Shown in pieces: positions 11,980-64,000 of a DNA stretch of 64,000 nucleotides. Position 1 is the stretch's first letter; each line of letters begins with the position of its first letter. The stretch comes from Desulfobacula sp. Its GTDB lineage: Bacteria; Desulfobacterota; Desulfobacteria; Desulfobacterales; Desulfobacteraceae. Location: assembly GCF_030145145.1 (NCBI RefSeq), contig NZ_JAQYWD010000017.1, forward strand, positions 1-64,000, in the 5' to 3' direction. Position numbers and translations under genes: made by a program. The notes under the pieces were generated by a model. That model saw only the letters and a program-made list of their open reading frames with translations. It made no database searches and was not told the DNA's origin.

Positions 11980-13077
11980 TTATGTCCAATCATATCGGAT
12001 TCTTAAATCATTATGCCATTCATTTTTAATGTATTTTTCATGTTGAAGACGTCCAACAACAATACCAGGCGGTATTTGGACCTCATTCGCGAATTGAATA
12101 ATATTGTCTTTGTAAAAATTTCCTTCCTTTATAAACAATTCAAACTTAGATGATGGTATAAGCGTCTCTGCTGCGTATTGATCGGCTTCGTCTTCTTTTT
12201 CATCCCTTGCTGATTCGGTGCTATCCGTTTCAAGAAATACGGAATTACAATCATGTAACAATATATGACCGAGTTCATGAAACAGGCTAAACCAAAAAAT
12301 ATCTGCCCATTTGCCCCGTATGGTCATCATAATAACAGCTTTATTTTTCCCGAGCCAGAATGTTGCACCCTGAACAAAAGTTCCAGGTAGATGTGGGCAT
12401 AAAACCAATACAACCCCTGAGTCTGCTAATTTTTGACGCAGTTCATCCTGAAACTTATCTGGTTCACGTGCAGTTAAAGATCTTATCTCTTGAATAGATT
12501 TTTTAAATCTGTTTTTATCAAACGCTGGTAAGAACTGTTTTTGAGCCTTTAGTTCTCCTATCCTCAACCATGAGGTGATAGCTTCAGATGATGCCTTTTG
12601 TTTTTTACCTCCTCCGAATCTAAATGCAGTCTGATAACGAGGCAAGTTGTAAATAGTTTTTAATGCCGTTACGCCAAAGAATTTATGTAATTCTAAAATT
12701 TTATCAGTTGGACGAGTTCTCTTTTTTATGATATTTAATTTGACCAAATCGGCGTAACGAAATTTGGTAACAAGCTTGATCTCCTCTTTAAGTCTTTTTT
12801 GCTCGAGAATTTCGTTCTGTCGTGCCAAAGTAAGTCGATAATCAGCTTCTAGACCCGTCCAAATATGTGCCGGTACTCCGACAACCTTTTCCAACTGAAG
12901 TGCAGTGTCTGGAGTAATTGCCTTAGCCCCCTTGAAAATAGCACTTAGTTTTGGAGCAGGGCGATTCATCCTTTGTGCAAGTTCATTCTTGCTTATACCC
13001 AGTTCTTCAATAATTTCTTCAAGGTATTCACCTGGCGGAACCGGGAGATCAGAACAAATAATTTCTTTAGTCTCCAT
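11980..13077 (-). CDS. HigA-type antitoxin fused to IrrE/ImmA metallopeptidase
   Basis: 365 residues. Residues 10-75 are a HigA/XRE helix-turn-helix (PPGEYLEEIIEELGISKNEL, ITPDTALQLEKVVG). The C-terminal half is an IrrE/ImmA zinc peptidase with H267-E268-L-G-H271 in FHELGHILLHD and a downstream acidic DEADQYAAETLIP helix giving the third ligand. ImmA-type enzymes cut their partner repressor under stress. The ATG overlaps the end of the upstream RelE/HigB-like toxin gene by 11 nt. Inferred: a toxin-antitoxin module whose antitoxin carries its own protease domain. Confidence 0.88.
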   Translation of the reverse strand: METKEIICSDLPVPPGEYLEEIIEELGISKNELAQRMNRPAPKLSAIFKGAKAITPDTALQLEKVVGVPAHIWTGLEADYRLTLARQNEILEQKRLKEEIKLVTKFRYADLVKLNIIKKRTRPTDKILELHKFFGVTALKTIYNLPRYQTAFRFGGGKKQKASSEAITSWLRIGELKAQKQFLPAFDKNRFKKSIQEIRSLTAREPDKFQDELRQKLADSGVVLVLCPHLPGTFVQGATFWLGKNKAVIMMTIRGKWADIFWFSLFHELGHILLHDCNSVFLETDSTESARDEKEDEADQYAAETLIPSSKFELFIKEGNFYKDNIIQFANEVQIPPGIVVGRLQHEKYIKNEWHNDLRIRYDWT

Positions 13078-16771: not shown

Positions 16772-17065
16772 TTAATGGTAGTCAGCTATTTCTACCTGAT
16801 TTGCGCATCCGTCTTTCCAAATAAAACAAATTCTATATTGGTTGTTTATTCGGATACTATGTTCCATCTTTCTATCTCCAGATAATGATTTAAATTGATT
16901 GCCTGGTGGAACCCGTAATTCTTCTAATTCAATGATAGAGTCAATTTGATCTAATTTTCTGGCCGCGATTCTCCAAAGGTTTTTAGGACAAGTTTTTCTG
17001 GCATCTTTTGTATTTTTACCATTAAAGATATCCTCCGTTCCCTTATCCAAAAATGAATTTATCAT
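16772..17065 (-). CDS. higB: HigB mRNA interferase toxin
   Basis: 97 residues from the ATG at 17065, the canonical HigB start (MINSFLDKGTEDIFNG); upstream codons to 17266 come from repeat copy 6 and are not native. Core motifs RVPPGNQFKSLSGDRK, SIRINNQYRICFIW and VEIADYH are those of HigB, a RelE-fold ribosome-dependent mRNase. Toxin gene first, then HigA, the normal order. Confidence 0.92.
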   Translation of the reverse strand: MINSFLDKGTEDIFNGKNTKDARKTCPKNLWRIAARKLDQIDSIIELEELRVPPGNQFKSLSGDRKMEHSIRINNQYRICFIWKDGCANQVEIADYH

Positions 17066-17159
17066 AAAAACATGATAGCACGGTACCCATGCTATTTCAA
17101 TACTGTCGTCAATATAACAGCAATTTTTGTATTCGGTGTATTCGGTGTATTCATATTCC

Positions 17160-17330
17160 GGGGACATCTTATTCAATTCAGTTGCTTTGGTTTGGATAGA
17201 GACAACAACTCCCAGGCTCAAGGCCGGGGCAGAATATAAAATTAATTGTGCGATCGTTAGAGGCATAATAATCTTTATCGTTAATTAAGTAAGGTGTCAC
17301 CAGAACATCACCAGAACAAGACACCAGAAC
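17160..17330 (+). repeat. MITE-like repeat family 2, copy 6
   Basis: Preceded at 17128-17157 by GTATTCGGT, TATTCGGTG, TATTCATATT stutters. Left end GGGGACATCTTATTCAATTC, interior hairpin partly conserved, right end ACCAGAAC three times (to 17330). Directly beyond the right edge is a VapC frame that lacks its N-terminus. Confidence 0.88.
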
Positions 17331-37999: not shown

Positions 38000-38710
38000 T
38001 TATGGTTTTTTAAAATAGAGAACCAGACTTTTTCCCAGGATGGGGTTCAGCAAGTCGTCAATAAAGGCGGTCAATTTCGGTTTTTTCATCAAATCCCATA
38101 CCAGTATCCGATGATACAGGTTTACCAGTTTTGAATCGGTCCTGTCCGGGCCCACAAGACATTTGAGCCACCAGAACGGGGAATGGATGCTGTGGGCATA
38201 GTGGCCGGCAAAATGGGTGACCCCGAACGCTTCAATGTCCCTGATCAATGTTTTCTCCGTATAAATCCTGACATGACCGCCGTCGCAATTCCCATAGGTA
38301 TCGGACAACAGCCAGCAGAGTTTTTCCGGCAGGAATCTCGGGACACTGACGGCGAGGATTCTCCCGGGTTTTAAAATCCTGACCAGCTCCGACATGGCGA
38401 TTTTATCTGCCGGGATATGCTCTAACACTTCCGAACAGATGACCGCATCAAAGCTGTTGTTTTTAAACGGCAGGCAGGTCACATCCATGCAGGAAAGATC
38501 AATGCACCGGCAGCCAAGATCTGCCAGGGCCTCATGAAACGCTAATTTTTTTTTGGTCACAACCAGGTTTTCAAAACCAAAGTCCCCGCCAACGCAGCGG
38601 GTTCCCTCGTGCTGACAGGCTTTGATGGTATGCCGGCCTTCACCGCAGCCAATATCCAGGATACGGTCATTGGGGCGGATGTCCAGCCGGTGAAAGTCAA
38701 TGGTAATCAT
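38000..38710 (-). CDS. SAM-dependent methyltransferase (class I, type 11)
   Basis: 236 residues. Motif I DRILDIGCGEGRH at about 16-28, motif II near VGGDFGFE, motif III VICSEVLEHIP then LVRILKPGRILAVSVPR. Class I Rossmann methyltransferase, substrate unknown. Overlaps the upstream glycosyltransferase gene by 14 nt; the two likely act on the same glycan or glycolipid. Confidence 0.88.
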   Translation of the reverse strand: MITIDFHRLDIRPNDRILDIGCGEGRHTIKACQHEGTRCVGGDFGFENLVVTKKKLAFHEALADLGCRCIDLSCMDVTCLPFKNNSFDAVICSEVLEHIPADKIAMSELVRILKPGRILAVSVPRFLPEKLCWLLSDTYGNCDGGHVRIYTEKTLIRDIEAFGVTHFAGHYAHSIHSPFWWLKCLVGPDRTDSKLVNLYHRILVWDLMKKPKLTAFIDDLLNPILGKSLVLYFKKP

Positions 38711-39956
38711 GGATCACCTCTCGATAGACGTCCACTGTCCGGATGGCGGTTTTTTCCCAGGTAAATTCTTTGAGGACCCGTTGATACCCTTTTTCTGCAA
38801 GGGTTTCGCACTGGGCAGGATCCTCCAGCAATTCTAAAATCGCGGTTTCCAAGGCTGCGGCACTCCCGGGGGGCACCAGTTTTGCCGCATCGCCGGCCAC
38901 TTCGGGCAATGCCCCCCCGGTGGTGCAGATTACCGGAATGCGACAGGCCATGGCTTCACCCACGGGAAGGCCGAACCCTTCGTATAAGGAGGGCACAACA
39001 GCAATACGGGCCTTGGCATATTCTTTAACAAACTGGTCATGGTCAATACGGCCGGTGAATGTGATGTGGGGTCCCAGGTCCAGTTGTTTGACCAGGTTGT
39101 CAATGCCGCCGTTTCGTTTAGGTGTACCAACGACGACCAGTTTAACCGGTCGGGTTTTCAAGATGGCTTTTACGGCCAGCAACAGGTGGTAAAGCCCTTT
39201 TAAAGGGGTATCCGCGCTATTGGTGACAATGATGCGGTGGGGATGTTTTTTAACGGTATCCAACGGATAAAAATGCTGGGTATCAATGCCGATGGGAATG
39301 GCCCTGAATCTTGATTCGGGAATCTTGAATTCTGTTGATATATCTGTTTTAGAACTGTCTGAAACCGTTATAATGTGGGACAGTTTTTTGGCCACGCGTT
39401 TCTGCATGTTGATAAACGAATACCACCTGAGGGCCTTGACCTTTTTTAGAAAAGAGCGGGTGCTTTGAACCGCAATCCGTCTGTCCACTGTTATGGGGTG
39501 ATGAATGGTTGCCGTGACCGGCATTTGTTTTACCAGGGACAAAATGCCATAGGACAGGCACTGGTTGTCATGGATGATGTCATACCGCTTTTGGGTCTCG
39601 TCCAGGTGTTTTTTTACCCGCATCCCAAAGGTCAGGGGTTCAGGATAGCCCATGGTGGAAACATCCAGCCATTCGATCAGGTTGATGGGGTCCTTGAGTT
39701 CTGTCAGGCTGGGGGTCCTGAAAAGGTCTTCCGGATTATACAGGTCCAGGGTTTCCAGCATGGTGAGGGTTACCGCCGGATGCAGGGACGTCTGTGAGGT
39801 ATGATTTAATAACGGGTCCGGTGGTCCGGCAATCACCTCCACGGTGTGGCCCAGGCGGGAAAGGGCATGACTCAAATGGCGGATATAGACCCCCTGGCCA
39901 CCGCAATGGGGATTGCTGCGATAGCTGATAAGTCCTATTTTAAGCGGAGCCGTCAT
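38697..39956 (-). CDS. Glycosyltransferase, GT4 family
   Basis: 419 residues from the ATG at 39956 (MTAPLKIGLISYRSNPHCGG); codons further upstream belong to the tRNA gene and are not used. GT-B layout with N-terminal GGQGVYIRHLSHALSRLGH and C-terminal VVVGTPKRNGGIDNLVKQL, YAKARIAVVPSLYEGFGLPV and EAMACRIPVICTTGGALPEV, the E-x7-E GT4 motif. Transfers a sugar from an NDP-sugar with retention; acceptor unknown. Coupled to the methyltransferase. Confidence 0.9.
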   Translation of the reverse strand: MTAPLKIGLISYRSNPHCGGQGVYIRHLSHALSRLGHTVEVIAGPPDPLLNHTSQTSLHPAVTLTMLETLDLYNPEDLFRTPSLTELKDPINLIEWLDVSTMGYPEPLTFGMRVKKHLDETQKRYDIIHDNQCLSYGILSLVKQMPVTATIHHPITVDRRIAVQSTRSFLKKVKALRWYSFINMQKRVAKKLSHIITVSDSSKTDISTEFKIPESRFRAIPIGIDTQHFYPLDTVKKHPHRIIVTNSADTPLKGLYHLLLAVKAILKTRPVKLVVVGTPKRNGGIDNLVKQLDLGPHITFTGRIDHDQFVKEYAKARIAVVPSLYEGFGLPVGEAMACRIPVICTTGGALPEVAGDAAKLVPPGSAAALETAILELLEDPAQCETLAEKGYQRVLKEFTWEKTAIRTVDVYREVIHDYH

Positions 39957-39966
39957 GGGAGGGGGT

Positions 39967-40042
39967 TGGTGCGCCCGGCTGGAATCGAACCAGCGATCTT
40001 CAGCTTCGGAGGCTGACGCCTTATCCACTGGGCTACGAGCGC
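39967..40042 (-). tRNA. tRNA-Arg (anticodon CCG)
   Basis: On the minus strand: acceptor GCGCTCG pairs with CGGGCGC (one G-T pair), D arm GCCCAGTGGATAAGGC, anticodon stem TCAGC/GCTGA with loop CTCCGAA giving anticodon CCG (codon CGG), T arm GCTGGTTCGATTCCAGC, and an encoded CCA end. Eleven nt from the glycosyltransferase start; the tRNA and that gene may share a transcript. tRNA genes are common integration sites but no integrase adjoins. Confidence 0.97.
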
Positions 40043-56102: not shown

Positions 56103-56593
56103 TGTAGTCTATCCATTATATTAAGAATCAAATAGATCATCCTATACTCAATTTTCGATGTTGGCCATTTATGCCTGGGCCGTCTATTAAAGCTGAAGAC
56201 CAAATTTAAATTATATATAAACAAATGGTTGTGCCGGTAAAGGGGATGATGTCTCTTTTACATTATTAATACAGAGACCCGGGCGGCGGGAGGCACCACC
56301 CTGTCATAAGGTGTGCCGGGAATGTTTGAACAGCAATGGGTTTGATCAAAATTAAAATAAGGCAAATTTGAAAATTAAGTTTATAAAATAAGTTGATATT
56401 AGGAGTTATGGTTTCGATAGTTATAAAAAAATAAGAATTTTCCTTATAAAATTAAAATTAATGCTTGACAATGATTTATGGATTTGATTAGGTGAAAGAA
56501 AATAGATTACAAACCGTTTATTTTGTATCTGTTTTTTACATTGATGGTCTTAAGTTTTACGAATTATTAAACTGTTATATAGAGGAGAAAACC
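56103..56593. other. Leader and promoter region of the MIO operon
   Basis: Contains the empty repeat at 56145-56211, a hairpin GGCACCACC...GGTGTGCC at 56292-56317, and a TTGACA at 56465-56470 that might be a -35 box. The frame open from a GTG at 56492 has no ribosome binding site and is not the start; AGAGGAG at 56581-56587 serves the ATG at 56594. The long leader could carry regulation by the Lrp protein downstream. Confidence 0.45.
56145..56211. repeat. Empty TCAACTTTCGG-type element (inner palindrome absent)
   Basis: CTCAATTTTCGATGTTGGCC then ATTTATGCCTGGG directly joined to CCGTCTATTAAAGCTGAAG. Flanks equal copy 2 (42678-42821), with the inner palindrome missing. Nested copy and empty copy thus exist side by side in this genome. 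Confidence 0.8.
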
Positions 56594-58219
56594 ATGCCAA
56601 TCAAAGAAAACACCTTGATCCTTGACGGTTACACATTAACTCTTGAAGAACTCATAAAAGCCGGGGATGACCTGTCGATCAAAGTTGAGGTTGACGAAAA
56701 AAACTGGCCCAAGATTCGTGAGTGCAGGACACTGGTTGAAAAATGGGCCAATGAAGAACAATGTATCTATGGTGTCAATACCAGTTGCGGTGGCTTGGTT
56801 GACTATCTTTTGCCCAGAGAAAGAGATAATGATTTTCAGAAAAATCTTGTCAGGAGTATTACCACCCAGGTGGGTAAACCCTTTGAAGATACCATGGTCA
56901 GAAAGTTTATGATAGCCAGGGCCAATTCTCTGTGCCGCGGTTTTTCCGGTATTAAAGAAGTGAATTTAAAAATTTATCTGGACATGATTAACAAACAGGT
57001 CTTTCCCCTTGTTCCCAGAAAAGGGTCCCTGGGCACCAGTGGTGACCTGGGTCCTTTAGGCTGCATCGCAAGTGTTGCCTTTGGGGAATGGAAAGCACGA
57101 TATAAAGGAGAAGTCCTGTCCGGGAAAGATGCAATGGCTGCTGCCGGTGTGGAGTTGATGTATCTTAATGCAAAAGAGGGACTTTCTCTTATTAATGGCA
57201 CTTCCGGAATGGTGGGCCTTGCCTGCACTGTTATAATGGAAGCGACCAATACATTGAAAAATTCTGATATTATCGCTGCTTTTGCCATTGAAACCCTTAT
57301 GGGAAGATATAATCCTTTTGATGTGAGAGTTCATGAACAAAAATATCACCCGGGCCAGTATGCGACGGCGATGAATCTGACCAAGCTTTTAGCCGGTAGT
57401 GGTCTGGCCATTGATGAGCAGGAACTGTCGTTGAAACTTCAGTCAACACTGAAAGAACATAAAGGGGTTTCCGTGGCGGATATCCCGGTGGAAGATGCTT
57501 ACTCTATCCGGTGTACGCCTCAGTTTGTAGGGCCGACAAAAGAAGCGGTACAACACGCCCACGAAGTTCTTTTCAGGGAACTCAATTCCAGTAATGATAA
57601 TCCATTGATATTTACGGAATGGGACACATTTATTCATAATGGACATTTTCACGGTCAGCCCATCTCCTTTGTAATGGACTGCCTGGGCATCGCCATGGTG
57701 AACCTGGGCGTTGTCAGTGACAGAAGAATCGACCGGTTTATGGATGAACACCATAGTACGGGTCTGCCACCATTTCTGTGCAAAGAAGACACTGGTGTCC
57801 GCATGGGCCTTATGGGCGGTCAGTTCATGACAACCTCTCTCGTAGCAGAGAACAGAACACTTGCCGTTCCGGCTTCCATCCAGTCCATCACATCAACAGC
57901 AGATTTTCAGGATATTGTCAGCTTTGGTCTGATTGCCGGAAGAAAAGCCAGAAAAATTGTTGAAAACACCAATCATATCCTGTCTTTTGAGTTGATGTGT
58001 GCCGCCCAGGCCGCAGATATCAGAGGGGTAGAAAAACTGAGTCCTGCAGGAAAAATTCTGCACAAAGCGGTTCGTGAAACCCTTCCGTACCTGGATCATG
58101 ACAGGGTTTACATTGATCACCTTGAAGAATTGAAAGCAAGAATTGAATCGGGTGAGTTTGTTGAAAAAATTGAAAAAGAAGTTGGCGAGCTGTTGATCGT
58201 TCATACTAGAGAAAAATAA
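56594..58219 (+). CDS. MIO-type aromatic amino acid lyase/aminomutase, Thr-Ser-Gly triad
   Basis: 541 residues. Makes the 4-methylideneimidazole-5-one cofactor from T148-S149-G150 in GSLGTSGDLGPLG; most family members use Ala-Ser-Gly, while Thr-Ser-Gly is known from the Pantoea phenylalanine aminomutase. Other active-site residues by alignment from memory: Y59 in IYGVNTSCG, N201 in LINGTSGM, E300-D-A-Y303-S-I-R306 (usual Gln is Glu here), F352 in HFHGQP, and Q439 in ADFQDIVSFG where HutH has Glu. The substrate switch is S88-I89, neither the His-Leu of tyrosine lyase nor the Ser-His of HutH. So histidine is unlikely; an aromatic amino acid and possibly a mutase reaction are inferred. AGAGGAG precedes the ATG. 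First gene of the set with aminotransferase, Lrp, BKACE and ligase. Confidence 0.85.
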   Translation: MPIKENTLILDGYTLTLEELIKAGDDLSIKVEVDEKNWPKIRECRTLVEKWANEEQCIYGVNTSCGGLVDYLLPRERDNDFQKNLVRSITTQVGKPFEDTMVRKFMIARANSLCRGFSGIKEVNLKIYLDMINKQVFPLVPRKGSLGTSGDLGPLGCIASVAFGEWKARYKGEVLSGKDAMAAAGVELMYLNAKEGLSLINGTSGMVGLACTVIMEATNTLKNSDIIAAFAIETLMGRYNPFDVRVHEQKYHPGQYATAMNLTKLLAGSGLAIDEQELSLKLQSTLKEHKGVSVADIPVEDAYSIRCTPQFVGPTKEAVQHAHEVLFRELNSSNDNPLIFTEWDTFIHNGHFHGQPISFVMDCLGIAMVNLGVVSDRRIDRFMDEHHSTGLPPFLCKEDTGVRMGLMGGQFMTTSLVAENRTLAVPASIQSITSTADFQDIVSFGLIAGRKARKIVENTNHILSFELMCAAQAADIRGVEKLSPAGKILHKAVRETLPYLDHDRVYIDHLEELKARIESGEFVEKIEKEVGELLIVHTREK

Positions 58220-58261: not shown

Positions 58262-59599
58262 ATGATTGAAGAACAAATTGAAAAGAAAATTGCAGATGCG
58301 TATATGGAAAAGTTTCCACTTTCCAGAGAGCATCATGAACGACTGATCAATTATATTCCCGGTGGTGCAACCAGAAGCTTGAGTTATTTTAAACCCTATC
58401 CCATTCATATTGATTATGGACAGGGTGCCTATGTTTATACCCATGAAGGGCATAAACTCCTTGATGTTACCAATGCCTATGGCGCCATTGTCCATGGGCA
58501 TGGTGACCCGGATGTGGTCAAGGCAGTCCAGGACGGCATTGTAAGGGGGTCTCAGTACTCTACCCCCACGGATGGGCAGTATAAACTGGCAAAACTGTTG
58601 TGTGAACGGGTGCCGGGGTTTGACAAGGTCAGGTTTCTGAATTCCGGAACCGAAGCCACCTTATTTGTCATGAGAACTGCCCGGGCCTATACCGGAAAAG
58701 ACAAGATCCTTAAAATGATCGGCGGATTTCATGGCACCCACGATAGTGTGGCCGCATCAACGAAAAAAAATGTTATTACCGCCGGCATTCCCTCCGGCAT
58801 GACCGAAGATATGCTGGATGTACCGTTTAATGATTTTGATGCGCTGGAGAAAGCGGTCAGGGAAAATGCCGACCAGCTGGCTGCGGTTATCATGGAGCCT
58901 TTCCTGGGTGCCGGCGGGGTTGTCTTGCCCAAGCCGGGGTACCTTGAGCATGTAAGAAAAGTGACAGCGGACCATAATGTGCTGTTGATTTTTGATGAGA
59001 TTTTTTCTTACCGGGTCAATACCGGGGGGTGCCAGAAGCTTTTCGGCGTGATGCCGGATTTGACGACGATTGGCAAGGTTGTAGGCGGAGGGCTCCCCAT
59101 TGGCGTGTTCGGCGGCAGGGCAGACATCATGAATATTTTTTGTCATGAAAACACGGACAAGCCCTTGTATCACTCCGGCACCTTTAACGGGTATGAAACA
59201 GTAATGCAGGCAGGATATGCAGCCTTGTCAAAATATGATGAAGCAGCCGTGGCCTATGTCAATAAACTGGGGGATCAGCTCCAAAAAGGCCTTTTGGCGA
59301 GCTTTAAAACCAATGGGTTAAATATCCAGTCCAACCAGATCGGGTCCCTGCTGAACATTCATTTTGTCAATGAACCCATCACCAATGCGGCACAGGTGTT
59401 GACATCGGTGGAACAGCTTCACCGGCTGATGCACCTGTCGTTATTGAACAAGGGAATTTTTACCATTCCCAGGGGATTGTTTATTTTATCCACGGTTATC
59501 ACCCCGGGAGAGATTGATTTCCTGGTGGATAAAATAGATGAAACCTTAAAAGAATTGTTGCCATTGATTGAAGAAAAATATAACCATTTGCTCGTGTAA
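58262..59599 (+). CDS. Class III aminotransferase, beta-amino acid (beta-phenylalanine) aminotransferase-like
   Basis: 445 residues, fold type I PLP enzyme closest in wording to glutamate-1-semialdehyde aminomutase (HemL). PLP Lys272 in TIGKVVGGGLPIG, D245 in LIFDEIFSYR, phosphate loop NSGTEATLF (S128-T130). The N-terminal PGGATRSLSYFKPYP has R38 where beta-phenylalanine aminotransferase (Variovorax VpAT, PGGNSRS) has its substrate-carboxylate Arg41. VpAT is itself the HemL-like subgroup. HemL proper is not expected beside a MIO enzyme and BKACE. Inferred: transaminates the beta-amino acid to a beta-keto acid. The gene is 42 nt after the MIO gene. Confidence 0.82.
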   Translation: MIEEQIEKKIADAYMEKFPLSREHHERLINYIPGGATRSLSYFKPYPIHIDYGQGAYVYTHEGHKLLDVTNAYGAIVHGHGDPDVVKAVQDGIVRGSQYSTPTDGQYKLAKLLCERVPGFDKVRFLNSGTEATLFVMRTARAYTGKDKILKMIGGFHGTHDSVAASTKKNVITAGIPSGMTEDMLDVPFNDFDALEKAVRENADQLAAVIMEPFLGAGGVVLPKPGYLEHVRKVTADHNVLLIFDEIFSYRVNTGGCQKLFGVMPDLTTIGKVVGGGLPIGVFGGRADIMNIFCHENTDKPLYHSGTFNGYETVMQAGYAALSKYDEAAVAYVNKLGDQLQKGLLASFKTNGLNIQSNQIGSLLNIHFVNEPITNAAQVLTSVEQLHRLMHLSLLNKGIFTIPRGLFILSTVITPGEIDFLVDKIDETLKELLPLIEEKYNHLLV

Positions 59600-60160: not shown

Positions 60161-61096
60161 ATGGATAACAAAATAATCATCACTGCAGCCATTACCGGAT
60201 CTGTTCATATCCCAACCATGAGTGATTATCTGCCCATAACGCCTGACGAGATTGTGGAAGATGCTGTAAAAGCCCATGAGGCCGGTGCTGCCATAGCCCA
60301 TATTCATGTACGGAATCCGGAAAACGGGTATCCCTCGGCTGACCCCGAACTTTTCATGGAAGTCTGTTCAAAGATCAAGGCCCGATGTGATCTGGTACTG
60401 CTTCCCACAACCGGCGGCGGCATGAACCAGACCACGGAAGAAAAACTGATCCCCATAAAAAGCCTGGAGCCTGAAATGTGCTCTTTTGACCCGGCACCGT
60501 TTAATTTCGGTATTTTCCAGATTGCCGGTCGTTTCAAAGAATACAAATATGACTGGGAACCCGAATACCTTGATTTGTGCAAGAATGTAACGTTCAGACC
60601 GACATTTAATGATGATATCATCTACGGCAAAGCATTCCTTGAGATGGAGACCAAACCTGAATTCGAAATTTATGAGCTGGGCCATGTCTCATATGTTAAA
60701 TGGCTGCTTGAAGAAAATTTTACCAAAGGACCGGTTCATCTCCAGTTTGTGTTTGGTCCCATGGTGGGATGGATGACCCCTTCGGTCAAACACCTGGTCC
60801 TGATTTATGATGAGGCAAAAGAAGTGCTTGGCAAAGACAATTTTACCTGGTCCGTAGCCGCTGGTGGACGATTTCAGATCCCCATTACGTCGACGGCCAT
60901 GGCCATGGGCGCACAAAATGTCAGGGTTGGGCTTGAAGATTCTATCTATGCCGGTAAAGGCATCATGGCAAAAGCCAGTGCAGATCAGGTGAACATGATC
61001 AAGCGGATTGCCAAGGAAATGAGCCTTGAGCCGGCTACCCCGGATGAGGCAAGGCAGATTCTCGGGTTGAAAGGGCTTGATAACGTAAAGTTTTAA
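60161..61096 (+). CDS. Beta-keto acid cleavage enzyme (BKACE/Kce family)
   Basis: 311 residues, TIM-barrel COG3246. Zinc ligands H47 and H49 in AAIAHIHVRN and E259 in VRVGLEDS, with D260 next to it; R237 in AAGGRFQIP. The family cuts a beta-keto acid with acetyl-CoA into acetoacetate and an acyl-CoA. In Kce, Glu14 holds the substrate amino group; the aligned residue here is V15 (ITGSV), so 3-keto-5-aminohexanoate is an unlikely substrate and a hydrophobic one is favoured. E169 matches Kce Glu143. AGGAG precedes the ATG. Inferred product from phenyl substrates: benzoyl-CoA. Confidence 0.88.
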   Translation: MDNKIIITAAITGSVHIPTMSDYLPITPDEIVEDAVKAHEAGAAIAHIHVRNPENGYPSADPELFMEVCSKIKARCDLVLLPTTGGGMNQTTEEKLIPIKSLEPEMCSFDPAPFNFGIFQIAGRFKEYKYDWEPEYLDLCKNVTFRPTFNDDIIYGKAFLEMETKPEFEIYELGHVSYVKWLLEENFTKGPVHLQFVFGPMVGWMTPSVKHLVLIYDEAKEVLGKDNFTWSVAAGGRFQIPITSTAMAMGAQNVRVGLEDSIYAGKGIMAKASADQVNMIKRIAKEMSLEPATPDEARQILGLKGLDNVKF

Positions 61097-61185: not shown

Positions 61186-62766
61186 TTGAATTATTCAGGT
61201 TACGCTTCAATTCATGCTCGGCATATTCCTGACAAGGTTTGCTTGATCGAACGCACCCCGGAAACGGGTAAAAGGAGGTCTTTCACCTGGAAGGCTTTTA
61301 ATGACGAGATCAATCGAACAGCGAATTTTTTGGCAAAGGAAATGGGGGTTACGCATGGAGATTTTGTCATGCACCTTCAGAAAGATTCACTGGAATGGCT
61401 TGTTACGTATTTTGCAATCATCCGTCTGGGTGCGGTTGTTGTGCCGCTCAACTTCCGTTTTGAAAGCTCGGATATCCTTTATGCTGCCGAAGTTTGTAAC
61501 CCGGATGTTTTTATTCTCGGCTCAGAATTTTTAGGTGTTGTCCAGCCGGCGCAAAGCAATCTGTCAACCGTTAAAAAATATATCTGTGTGGGCAATGATG
61601 TGCCGGATGATATGATAGATTTTAAAACCATCCAGGACTATCCGGATACGTCAGATGCACTCGTGCCGGTTGACAGGGATCACGACCTGGCCATGATGTT
61701 CACATCCGGTACCACCGGGAAACCCAAACCCGTACTTCATACCCATTTTTCAATTGGTAATACCGCCATTGGTAACGGAATGACGTATTCCGTACAAAAG
61801 GATGATAATTATTTGTTCTTTTTACCCCTCTACCACAGCGGCACCATGTTTTTATGGGCGCCTTTTTATGCCATCGGCGCCAAGGGGACTATTATCCGGG
61901 ATTTCAGGGATCCAAAATGGATCGTTGAAGCCATTGCCCAGGAAAAATGCACGGATGTATTATTTGTTGTGCCCATTGGCATTGCATTACTGAATGCCAT
62001 AGACAATGGCGGCTTGAACCTGGCTGACTATGATCTGTCTTCATGGAAATACATGGAGATTGGTGCCCAGCCCGTGCCGTTTGATATCATGAAGCTCCTT
62101 GTGGAAAAGCTCCCCTGCCAGGTGTCCAATATCTATGGCATCACCGAGGGCGGCGGTGGCGGCTTGTTCAACCTCTATCCTGAAGATGTCCTTTCCAGGC
62201 CCGGTTCCATTGGCAAACCCACGTTTGGTGTTGAAGCCAAAATCGTTGGCCCCACAGGCGATGAACTGTCCGATGGATCGGTGGGGGAACTGGTATTCCG
62301 TACCCCCAGAATGATGCGGGAATATTATTCCAATCCTGAAAAAACCCAGGAAACTTTAAAAAATGGTTGGCTTTATACCGGCGATCTATTAAAGAAAGAC
62401 AAAGACGGGTATTTTTACATTGTTGATCGAATGAAAGATATGATTACCAGTGGCGGCGAAAATATTTTCCCCGTTGAAATTGAGGACGCGCTCATGGACC
62501 ATCCTGATATAGAGGATGTGGCCTGTATCGGATATCCGGATGACCGACTGGTAGAAATTGTTCTTGCCGTGGTTCAAGTCAAAGAAGGCAAGCACTTGAG
62601 CCAGGAAGAGGTTATTGAATTTGCAAAATCAAAGATCTCGCTTTATAAGGTGCCCCGGAAGGTAATATTTGATCAGGTCCCCCGAAACCCAACAGGGAAA
62701 CTGATGAAACCCCAGCTTCGGGAAAAATTTACCGGCCGCAGGGAAGCGTTTATAAAGTTAGACTGA
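61186..62766 (+). CDS. AMP-forming acyl-CoA synthetase (ligase)
   Basis: 526 residues starting at TTG 61186 with AAAGGAG 8 nt upstream. ANL motifs: MMFTSGTTGKPKPVLHTH (A3), NIYGITEGGGGG (A5), LYTGDLLKKDKDGYFY (A7), RMKDMITSGGENIFP (A8) and NPTGKLMKPQ with the A10 Lys. Substrate not clear; acetoacetate (to regain acetoacetyl-CoA after BKACE) or an aryl carboxylate are the candidates that fit the neighbours. Just upstream, GGGAGATATGAAGTAA reads as a two-codon frame. Confidence 0.9.
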   Translation: MNYSGYASIHARHIPDKVCLIERTPETGKRRSFTWKAFNDEINRTANFLAKEMGVTHGDFVMHLQKDSLEWLVTYFAIIRLGAVVVPLNFRFESSDILYAAEVCNPDVFILGSEFLGVVQPAQSNLSTVKKYICVGNDVPDDMIDFKTIQDYPDTSDALVPVDRDHDLAMMFTSGTTGKPKPVLHTHFSIGNTAIGNGMTYSVQKDDNYLFFLPLYHSGTMFLWAPFYAIGAKGTIIRDFRDPKWIVEAIAQEKCTDVLFVVPIGIALLNAIDNGGLNLADYDLSSWKYMEIGAQPVPFDIMKLLVEKLPCQVSNIYGITEGGGGGLFNLYPEDVLSRPGSIGKPTFGVEAKIVGPTGDELSDGSVGELVFRTPRMMREYYSNPEKTQETLKNGWLYTGDLLKKDKDGYFYIVDRMKDMITSGGENIFPVEIEDALMDHPDIEDVACIGYPDDRLVEIVLAVVQVKEGKHLSQEEVIEFAKSKISLYKVPRKVIFDQVPRNPTGKLMKPQLREKFTGRREAFIKLD

Positions 62767-63088: not shown

Positions 63089-64000
63089 ATGAAGCTTCGA
63101 ACAGTTTTAGTATCATTGCTTGTCTTGTTGGTTGGATCATTTTTGTTTATCTCCCCGGTCGCTGCAAAGGCAAAACCGTCGCTGGACAAATGGAAACCGG
63201 ATTTTGACCCCAAAGGCGCAAAGTACCGATGCATTGTTTCTAATGTGTCAACGCCGGGTTTAGTGGGAACCCTTGCCGGTTTTGAGATTCGTGATGAAGT
63301 CTGGAAACGGACAAACGGCCAGGTCTATGTGGATTTTAAACCCTATTCAATTCTTGGCGGTGAAGTCGAGGTATTGAATATGCTTCAAATGGGTGCTGTC
63401 CAGGGTATGGGTGTCAGTTCCGTGGCGTCAACCAACCTGGGCCCCAGATTCGGCATTGTAAATCTGCCTTTCCTTGTGAACTCTTTTGACAAGTTGGAAA
63501 AATTTATCGGCAATAAAACGATTTTTAATCATTTTCTCATGGCCATGGATCACCAGGGAATTACCGGACTGGATATTACCGGATATGGAAACTATGGCTG
63601 GGCCACCACCATTCCCGTTAGAAATATTGAAGATGCGAAAAAAGTAAAATTCAGGATCGCAGAAGCTGCCGTGAATCAGTTAAGCTACAGAAACTGGGGA
63701 TTCAATCCTGTTTCCATGCCATGGCCTGATGTGCCGGTTGCTTTGAAACAGGGCGTCATCACCGGTCTTGATCATACGCTCACGGTCTGTAATGTGACAA
63801 AAAAGTTTGAAGTGGCCAAGTATTTTACCCAGATTAACTATGCCCAGGGATTGTTTATCTGGATTTTCAATAAAGCCTGGCTTGCCAAGCTGCCCGCCGA
63901 CATCAGAGAAGCCTTTATCTCCAGTGTTCACGATATCTGTGCCCAGAGCCGAATAAAATCACTCACCGAAGAAAATACCAATATTGAGAAAGCAAAAGCA
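63089..64000 (+). CDS. TRAP transporter substrate-binding protein, DctP family (partial)
   Basis: 304 residues visible; the gene runs past the window end. Signal peptide about 1-27 (LRTVLVSLLVLLVGSFLFI, cleavage near AKA). DctP body: GTLAGFEIRDEVWKRTNGQV, LGGEVEVLNMLQMGAV, FRIAEAAVNQLSYRNWGF with the conserved Arg that pairs with a carboxylate, MPWPDVPVALKQGVITGLDH. Binds organic or amino acids for the DctQM permease expected beyond the edge. AGGAAAGGA precedes the ATG at 63089. It may supply the MIO pathway, but a palindrome separates the two. Confidence 0.93.
   Translation, partial: MKLRTVLVSLLVLLVGSFLFISPVAAKAKPSLDKWKPDFDPKGAKYRCIVSNVSTPGLVGTLAGFEIRDEVWKRTNGQVYVDFKPYSILGGEVEVLNMLQMGAVQGMGVSSVASTNLGPRFGIVNLPFLVNSFDKLEKFIGNKTIFNHFLMAMDHQGITGLDITGYGNYGWATTIPVRNIEDAKKVKFRIAEAAVNQLSYRNWGFNPVSMPWPDVPVALKQGVITGLDHTLTVCNVTKKFEVAKYFTQINYAQGLFIWIFNKAWLAKLPADIREAFISSVHDICAQSRIKSLTEENTNIEKAKA

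Follow-up and report, generated by a model that had tools for sequence, protein, structure and literature searches.

A predicted AdmH-type phenylalanine 2,3-aminomutase in a putatively catabolic operon of Desulfobacula and other Desulfobacteraceae

The window analysed here, a stretch of 64,000 nucleotides of a contig from the marine sulfate reducer Desulfobacula sp., encodes an MIO enzyme whose precursor triad reads Thr-Ser-Gly, which raises the question of what reaction this enzyme catalyzes and which pathway it serves. A first-pass annotation of the DNA took this triad, together with Ser88, Ile89, Glu300 and Gln439, as a sign that the enzyme differs from a routine HutH and is possibly a mutase. 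To our knowledge, MIO aminomutases are known only from natural-product synthesis (andrimid, enediynes, taxol). The gene and the features relevant to its assignment are:

56594-58219, forward strand: MIO enzyme, predicted phenylalanine 2,3-aminomutase, 541 aa (Pfam, NCBIfam, phmmer, tree, Foldseek)
56581-56587, forward strand: ribosome-binding site AGAGGAG before ATG 56594 (sequence)
57035-57043, forward strand: MIO precursor triad Thr148-Ser149-Gly150 (sequence; kept in Desulfobacteraceae orthologs)
56858-56860, forward strand: Ile89, aryl-selectivity position, His in HutH and SgTAM, Val in AdmH (alignment)
57491-57493, forward strand: Glu300, AdmH-clade residue, Gln in HutH and SgTAM (alignment)
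57905-57910, forward strand: Phe438-Gln439, AdmH-clade pair (alignment)

The product is a full-length member of the Lyase_aromatic family (PF00221, 516.7 bits). Counted from ATG 56594, the codons GGC ACC AGT GGT at 57032-57043 specify Gly147-Thr148-Ser149-Gly150, which confirms that the triad is real, and the residue numbers used in the first-pass annotation (S88, I89, T148, E300, Q439) fit this start exactly; an alternative longer start, GTG 56492, is not required given the ribosome-binding site. The triad is not a product of chance, since TSG is present in all 35 tabulated Desulfobacteraceae-type orthologs, whereas in the HutH that this genome also encodes the triad is ASG, along with His89 and Glu439. 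As a ground for the mutase reading, however, it proved poor: Ala, Ser, Cys and Thr are all allowed as the first triad residue (PMC9002059), and within the clade that the enzyme shares with AdmH of Pantoea agglomerans, SSG is found in six gammaproteobacterial relatives (L086-L091) and ASG in enzymes of Nocardia and Oxalobacteraceae (L117 9001-10461, L120 2751-4253). The triad thus decides nothing on function, and its use as a mutase marker was dropped. The two ASG enzymes are useful natural variants for the question of whether the first triad residue matters.

The best NCBIfam model for the enzyme is TIGR04475, the D-beta-phenylalanine-forming aminomutase, whose equivalog cut-off of 800 bits is missed at 665.6 bits; the putatively catabolic subclade to which the enzyme belongs scores 649-702 with this model, versus 812-916 for natural-product members. 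The cut-offs of the HutH model (TIGR01225, 456.8 bits versus 539.15) and of the tyrosine 2,3-aminomutase model (TIGR03832, 449.6 versus 501) are also missed. Among PDB chains, phmmer ranks AdmH (3UNV, 475 bits) above SgTAM (371), HutH (296), the tyrosine ammonia-lyase of R. sphaeroides (TAL, 221) and the PALs (at most 182). Phylogeny and structure prediction, both named in the first-pass annotation as checks, likewise point to AdmH. In a maximum-likelihood tree, the enzyme is located in a 35-row clade with AdmH (support 100/100), apart from HutH and SgTAM, and it did not cluster with HutH or an XAL lyase clade; the long HutH and SgTAM branches blur their mutual order but not the split of the AdmH clade, which separates a natural-product half (AdmH, Serratia, Vibrio, actinomycetes) from a half comprising Desulfobacteraceae and marine Gammaproteobacteria (100/99). 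The AlphaFold model (mean pLDDT 86.7, pTM 0.89) has 3UNV as its first Foldseek match in the PDB (TM 0.88/0.93). Because the score lies under the equivalog cut-off, the enzyme is, by sequence, assigned to its own sister subclade of the AdmH type rather than to AdmH itself; it is not a HutH. A true HutH is encoded about 35 kb away on the same contig (C74, 93.6-95.3 kb; L005 3632-5257), in a hut cluster, with an ASG triad and 690.7 bits to TIGR01225. The suggestion that the enzyme differs from a routine HutH and is possibly a mutase is therefore supported by the missed HutH cut-off, the separate true HutH, the tree and the operon enzymes for beta-amino and beta-keto acids described below, mutase activity itself being a prediction.

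A third MIO paralog (L036 4647-6245, L037 3797-5353) is 34-35% identical and has ASG and His89; its neighbours at L036 are a ketosynthase-like gene and genes for an adenylation enzyme, an acyltransferase and a glycosyltransferase, which together probably form a cluster of the aryl-polyene/flexirubin type.

The MIO triad, the catalytic Tyr59, Tyr303 and Arg306, and the AdmH aryl pocket are all present in the enzyme. In the alignment, where the triads of PDB rows were filled in by hand (the PDB prints X) and the TSG of the AdmH half was read from Serratia and Vibrio genomes (L105, L125), the residues separating the enzyme from HutH and SgTAM are Ile89, Glu300, Asn349, Phe411 and Phe438, all of them common to the AdmH clade, with position 89 being Ile or Val throughout and Ala in the single row L117. 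Ile89 and Glu300, both named in the first-pass annotation, are among these positions, whereas Gln439 and Ser88 were dropped as distinctive residues: Gln439 is also Gln in SgTAM and the third paralog, and Ser88 is shared with HutH. Compared with AdmH/PaPAM (46% identity), the enzyme shares Leu85, Glu300, Met407, Phe411, Phe438 and Gln439, as well as the TSG triad of AdmH-like Serratia and Vibrio sequences, and differs in having Ile89 for Val, Ser88 for Ala and Met404 for Leu. The tyrosine aminomutase SgcC4/SgTAM (2OHY, 3KDY; 40% identity) has the same MIO aminomutase fold and Tyr59/Tyr303/Arg306 but differs in His89, Gln300 and Asn438. His occupies position 89 in SgTAM, in the HutH of both T. 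cruzi and the window's genome, and in the third paralog. Residue 89 is a known aryl-selectivity position, at which the His89Phe substitution in R. sphaeroides TAL adds a hydrophobic residue and alters selectivity (PMC9002059). Given that Tyr- and His-specific enzymes have His here, the hydrophobic Ile89 is predicted to favour phenylalanine as substrate. AdmH forms (S)-beta-phenylalanine (PMC3903478), and the enzyme probably isomerises L-phenylalanine to the same product.

The gene is the first of a run encoded on the same strand:

58262-59599, forward strand: class III aminotransferase, predicted beta-phenylalanine:2-oxoacid transaminase, 445 aa (PF00202, PDB matches)
58373-58375, forward strand: transaminase Arg38, aligned with the carboxylate-binding Arg36 of StoTA (alignment; PMC10589169)
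59639-60121, forward strand: Lrp/AsnC-family regulator (PF01037, PF13412, PF13404)
60161-61096, forward strand: BKACE, predicted to convert benzoylacetate and acetyl-CoA to benzoyl-CoA and acetoacetate (PF05853)
61186-62766, forward strand: AMP-forming acyl/aryl-CoA ligase (PF00501)
63089-64000, forward strand: TRAP DctP, running beyond the window end and followed on contig C74 by DctQ and DctM, to about 65989

Gaps of 39-42 bp separate the aminomutase, transaminase, Lrp and BKACE genes; the ligase and TRAP genes then follow. The best PDB match of the transaminase is the beta-amino acid transaminase StoTA (6K8H), and the beta-phenylalanine transaminases VpAT (4AO9) and MesAT (2YKU), with 6IZ9, are found in the top seven, mixed with GSA aminomutases. 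Arg38 is kept, corresponding to a residue proposed to bind the carboxylate in StoTA (PMC10589169), yet GSA aminomutases score nearly as high, so that the protein is not separable from them by score, and the proposed aromatic motif is kept in part. The protein reaches 339.9 bits with the HemL model (cut-off 527.3), while a true HemL scoring 648 bits is encoded elsewhere in the genome. The BKACE assignment is firm at the family level (PF05853, 292.6 bits versus a cut-off of 24.8; residues 4-303 on profile 1-274), but the substrate-specific cut-offs are missed (NF053538, 338.9 versus 430; NF052387, 214.1 versus 382; NF053568, 152.6 versus 350), and neither the transaminase nor the BKACE reaches any substrate-specific NCBIfam cut-off.

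Other features of the window lie outside this run. A glycosyltransferase-like ORF with a GTG start (38697-40028, reverse strand) overlaps a tRNA gene (39970-40042, reverse strand), its real start probably being an internal ATG (MTAPLK). A secretion/pilus cluster at 18.8-36 kb encodes an ExeA-like ATPase and GspE/GspF-like proteins, with several pseudopilin-like ORFs at 23.1-27.2 kb, and ORFs at 16772-17266 and 11980-13077 (both reverse strand) resemble, by eye, a HigB/RelE-type toxin end and a HigA/ImmA-type protein.

Taken together, these assignments suggest a degradative pathway. In the first step, L-phenylalanine would give up its ammonia on the MIO group and be re-aminated at the beta carbon, yielding (S)-beta-phenylalanine; this stereochemistry is predicted from the AdmH product (PMC3903478) and from the (S)-selectivity of degradative beta-phenylalanine transaminases (PMC6150868). 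The class III transaminase would then produce benzoylacetate (3-oxo-3-phenylpropanoate). BKACEs convert a beta-keto acid and acetyl-CoA to acetoacetate and an acyl-CoA (PMC10470551), and the enzyme of the operon would in this manner swap the two-carbon end of benzoylacetate, releasing benzoyl-CoA and acetoacetate without ATP. Benzoyl-CoA would enter the bam ring-reduction pathway. An AtoAD-type CoA transferase (TIGR02429), looked for as a sign that acetoacetate is used, is over the cut-off in only one of six genomes. Lrp would sense the amino acid, and the downstream ligase and TRAP transporter would take up and activate a related aryl acid. We consider it fairly probable that the AdmH-type phenylalanine 2,3-aminomutase works in degradation through these intermediates and not in antibiotic synthesis.

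The gene order aminomutase-transaminase-Lrp-BKACE-ligase-TRAP recurs in many genomes, which represent at least seven genera, the carriers including Desulfobacula, Desulfotignum, Desulfospira joergensenii DSM 10085 and other Desulfobacteraceae. In the fully read genomes (L038-L048), and in collection contigs that are long enough, the aminomutase gene is followed by those for the transaminase and BKACE and mostly also by those for Lrp, the ligase and TRAP. Across 291 genomes sampled from the order, the aminomutase is found in Desulfobacteraceae only. Co-occurrence was assessed in 86 Desulfobacteraceae genomes, 54 of them at least 90% complete. Within the latter set, the aminomutase and a close BKACE ortholog are both present in 31 genomes and both absent in 23, with either one alone in none (0 and 0); the aminomutase and bamA are both present in 27 and both absent in 23, with bamA alone in none and the aminomutase alone in four, all of which are fragmented MAGs. 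Shared clades inflate such counts: a nifH control gave a strong but negative association from phylogeny alone, so p-values by themselves are no evidence, and a plain p-value for bamA was dropped. Within-genus cases are better evidence than the overall counts. In genus g4, bamA is present in exactly the two aminomutase carriers and absent in the 15 others (2/0/0/15), and in genus g1 the sole complete genome without the aminomutase is also without bamA. The aminomutase subclade is apparently represented in most of the benzoyl-CoA-degrading Desulfobacteraceae examined and in marine Gammaproteobacteria. Two bamA genes in the genome of the window score above the TIGR03200 cut-off (C63:64070-65155 and C33:2030-3112), nearly all bamA-bearing relatives having one, and Desulfobacteraceae bacterium 4572_130 has a bamA-type gene about 4 kb upstream of the aminomutase gene, on the same strand and in the same gene run, with TRAP genes between them.

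A second version of the locus is found in marine Gammaproteobacteria. In four loci (L087-L090), the aminomutase-transaminase pair adjoins genes for Dch, Oah, Had, a regulator of the benzoate pathway and an AOR-family protein, and at L088 the first four of these score far over their cut-offs (Dch TIGR03189, 362 bits; Oah TIGR03200, 664; Had TIGR03201, 547; regulator NF006015, 327). BKACE was not detected at these four loci; genes for a CoA ligase and a thiolase are present at L087 and L088, and L091 and the fragment L128 both have the order aminomutase, CoA ligase, thiolase, transaminase. The best PDB match of the gammaproteobacterial sister transaminase is the beta-phenylalanine aminotransferase 4AO9. 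Here, the CoA ligase and thiolase would take the place of BKACE at the third step, and no other observation speaks as strongly for the pathway as these differing last steps for the same predicted intermediate, benzoylacetate. In a Halieaceae MAG contig (L082, 531-10106), aminomutase, transaminase and Lrp genes are followed by one for a PaaK-like ligase (ORF read by eye); apparent heme d1 (nitrite reductase) genes come next, which hints at a denitrifier with the pathway.

The downstream genes connect the operon with previously described aromatic metabolism. In D. toluolica, a TRAP system has been described as importing phenylalanine/phenylacetate (PMC5109826). The DctM of the operon is 95% identical to that of another Desulfobacula genome (G055) and 90% identical to that of D. 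multivorans; the three TRAP proteins of the G055 aminomutase operon are 75, 80 and 90% identical to D. multivorans proteins encoded at 2.78 Mb, and G055 has one single DctM of the operon type. These identities indicate, indirectly, that the operon transporter is probably the published one. The ortholog of the ligase in G055 shares 74% identity with one that adjoins the phenylacetate-linked TRAP genes of D. multivorans, a locus with two ligases, either of which may be FadD4. Since D. multivorans has this ligase-TRAP module without the aminomutase, the operon ligase and TRAP may serve phenylacetate or aryl acids in general. Uptake seems to be part of the function of the operon, as a distantly related TRAP takes the same position in some loci. 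The published model of D. toluolica Tol2 takes phenylalanine through phenylpyruvate and phenylacetyl-CoA (PMC5109826), and the proposed pathway would be a second phenylalanine route in this organism.

Several other explanations of the locus were weighed against this pathway. It is unlikely that the enzyme acts as a phenylalanine ammonia-lyase whose product, cinnamate, would be activated by the operon ligase and beta-oxidised to benzoyl-CoA, with the transaminase and BKACE serving another substrate. MIO lyases and mutases have one mechanism and can switch, AdmH itself acting as an ammonia-lyase when hot (PMC3903478), and the required CoA ligase is present; however, the enoyl-CoA hydratase and dehydrogenase genes needed for this route are absent from the operon, the transaminase and BKACE genes are contiguous with the enzyme gene and co-inherited with it, and cinnamate has no use for the transaminase that accompanies aminomutase, ligase and thiolase at L091 and L128. 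Operation of the same pathway on tyrosine or another aryl-alanine, for instance through beta-tyrosine to 4-hydroxybenzoyl-CoA, is rather unlikely as well, even though the prediction of aryl pockets from sequence is imperfect and Desulfobacula strains use many aromatic compounds. Against it stand Ile/Val at position 89, which is His in SgTAM, HutH and the aryl-polyene-type paralog and where substitution shifts the selectivity of TAL (PMC9002059), and the gammaproteobacterial neighbour genes, which are benzoyl-CoA genes.

The direction of the reaction might also be the opposite, with environmental beta-aryl amino acids being taken up and passed by the aminomutase into alpha-amino acid metabolism. 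Aminomutase reactions are reversible and a TRAP transporter is usually present, but this seems improbable, because the transaminase and BKACE would degrade the beta-amino acid directly, making the mutase superfluous, and the TRAP genes resemble the phenylalanine/phenylacetate system (PMC5109826). A role of beta-phenylalanine as a natural-product building block, as with AdmH and andrimid, is very improbable: AdmH is the closest characterised enzyme and the nearest other clade consists of actinomycete enzymes, several of them beside adenylation-type genes, yet around the gene no NRPS/PKS genes were found in the window or the contig stretch read, and the partner genes are catabolic and kept across genera. 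The chance that the enzyme is a diverged histidine ammonia-lyase is negligible, since, for all its 456.8 bits to the HutH model and the name that automatic pipelines may give it, it is under the cut-off, without His89 and Glu439 and outside the HutH clade, with a genuine hut operon on the same contig.

The proposed degradation of phenylalanine through beta-phenylalanine would combine elements of known systems. The Kce-type pathway follows the same logic of an aminomutase, removal of the amino group, and a BKACE that uses acetyl-CoA and releases acetoacetate, but its aminomutase is a radical-SAM enzyme and its substrate an aliphatic amino acid, in contrast to the MIO enzyme and transaminase found here, and the BKACE of the operon misses the Kce model (214.1 versus 382). 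Benzoylacetate is also an intermediate of acetophenone degradation, where it is activated by a benzoylacetate-CoA ligase (PMC4729919). The phenylacetyl-CoA route of anaerobic phenylalanine degradation (Aromatoleum, Thauera, the D. toluolica model) has the same end point, benzoyl-CoA, whereas the proposed route would move the amino group first, proceeding without phenylpyruvate or alpha-oxidation and with BKACE or ligase and thiolase. Relative to AdmH, the context would differ as well, with a catabolic operon instead of the andrimid cluster. A literature search of incomplete coverage found no MIO aminomutase in degradation and no aminomutase route to benzoyl-CoA. We put at slightly better than even the chance that the locus represents an undescribed route of phenylalanine breakdown whose two versions can stand in for each other (BKACE in sulfate reducers, ligase and thiolase in marine Gammaproteobacteria), with the first catabolic MIO aminomutase and an aromatic BKACE substrate.

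The fate of the beta-keto acid formed from beta-phenylalanine has been called uncertain (PMC6150868); if the proposed pathway is true, this question would be answered and BKACE would gain an aromatic substrate. Likely annotations of these genes as "histidine ammonia-lyase" and "glutamate-1-semialdehyde aminomutase" would need correcting. The pathway is directly testable in the cultured Desulfospira joergensenii DSM 10085 (L073), and it would constitute a new entry into anaerobic aromatic metabolism by way of a catabolic subclade of MIO aminomutases.
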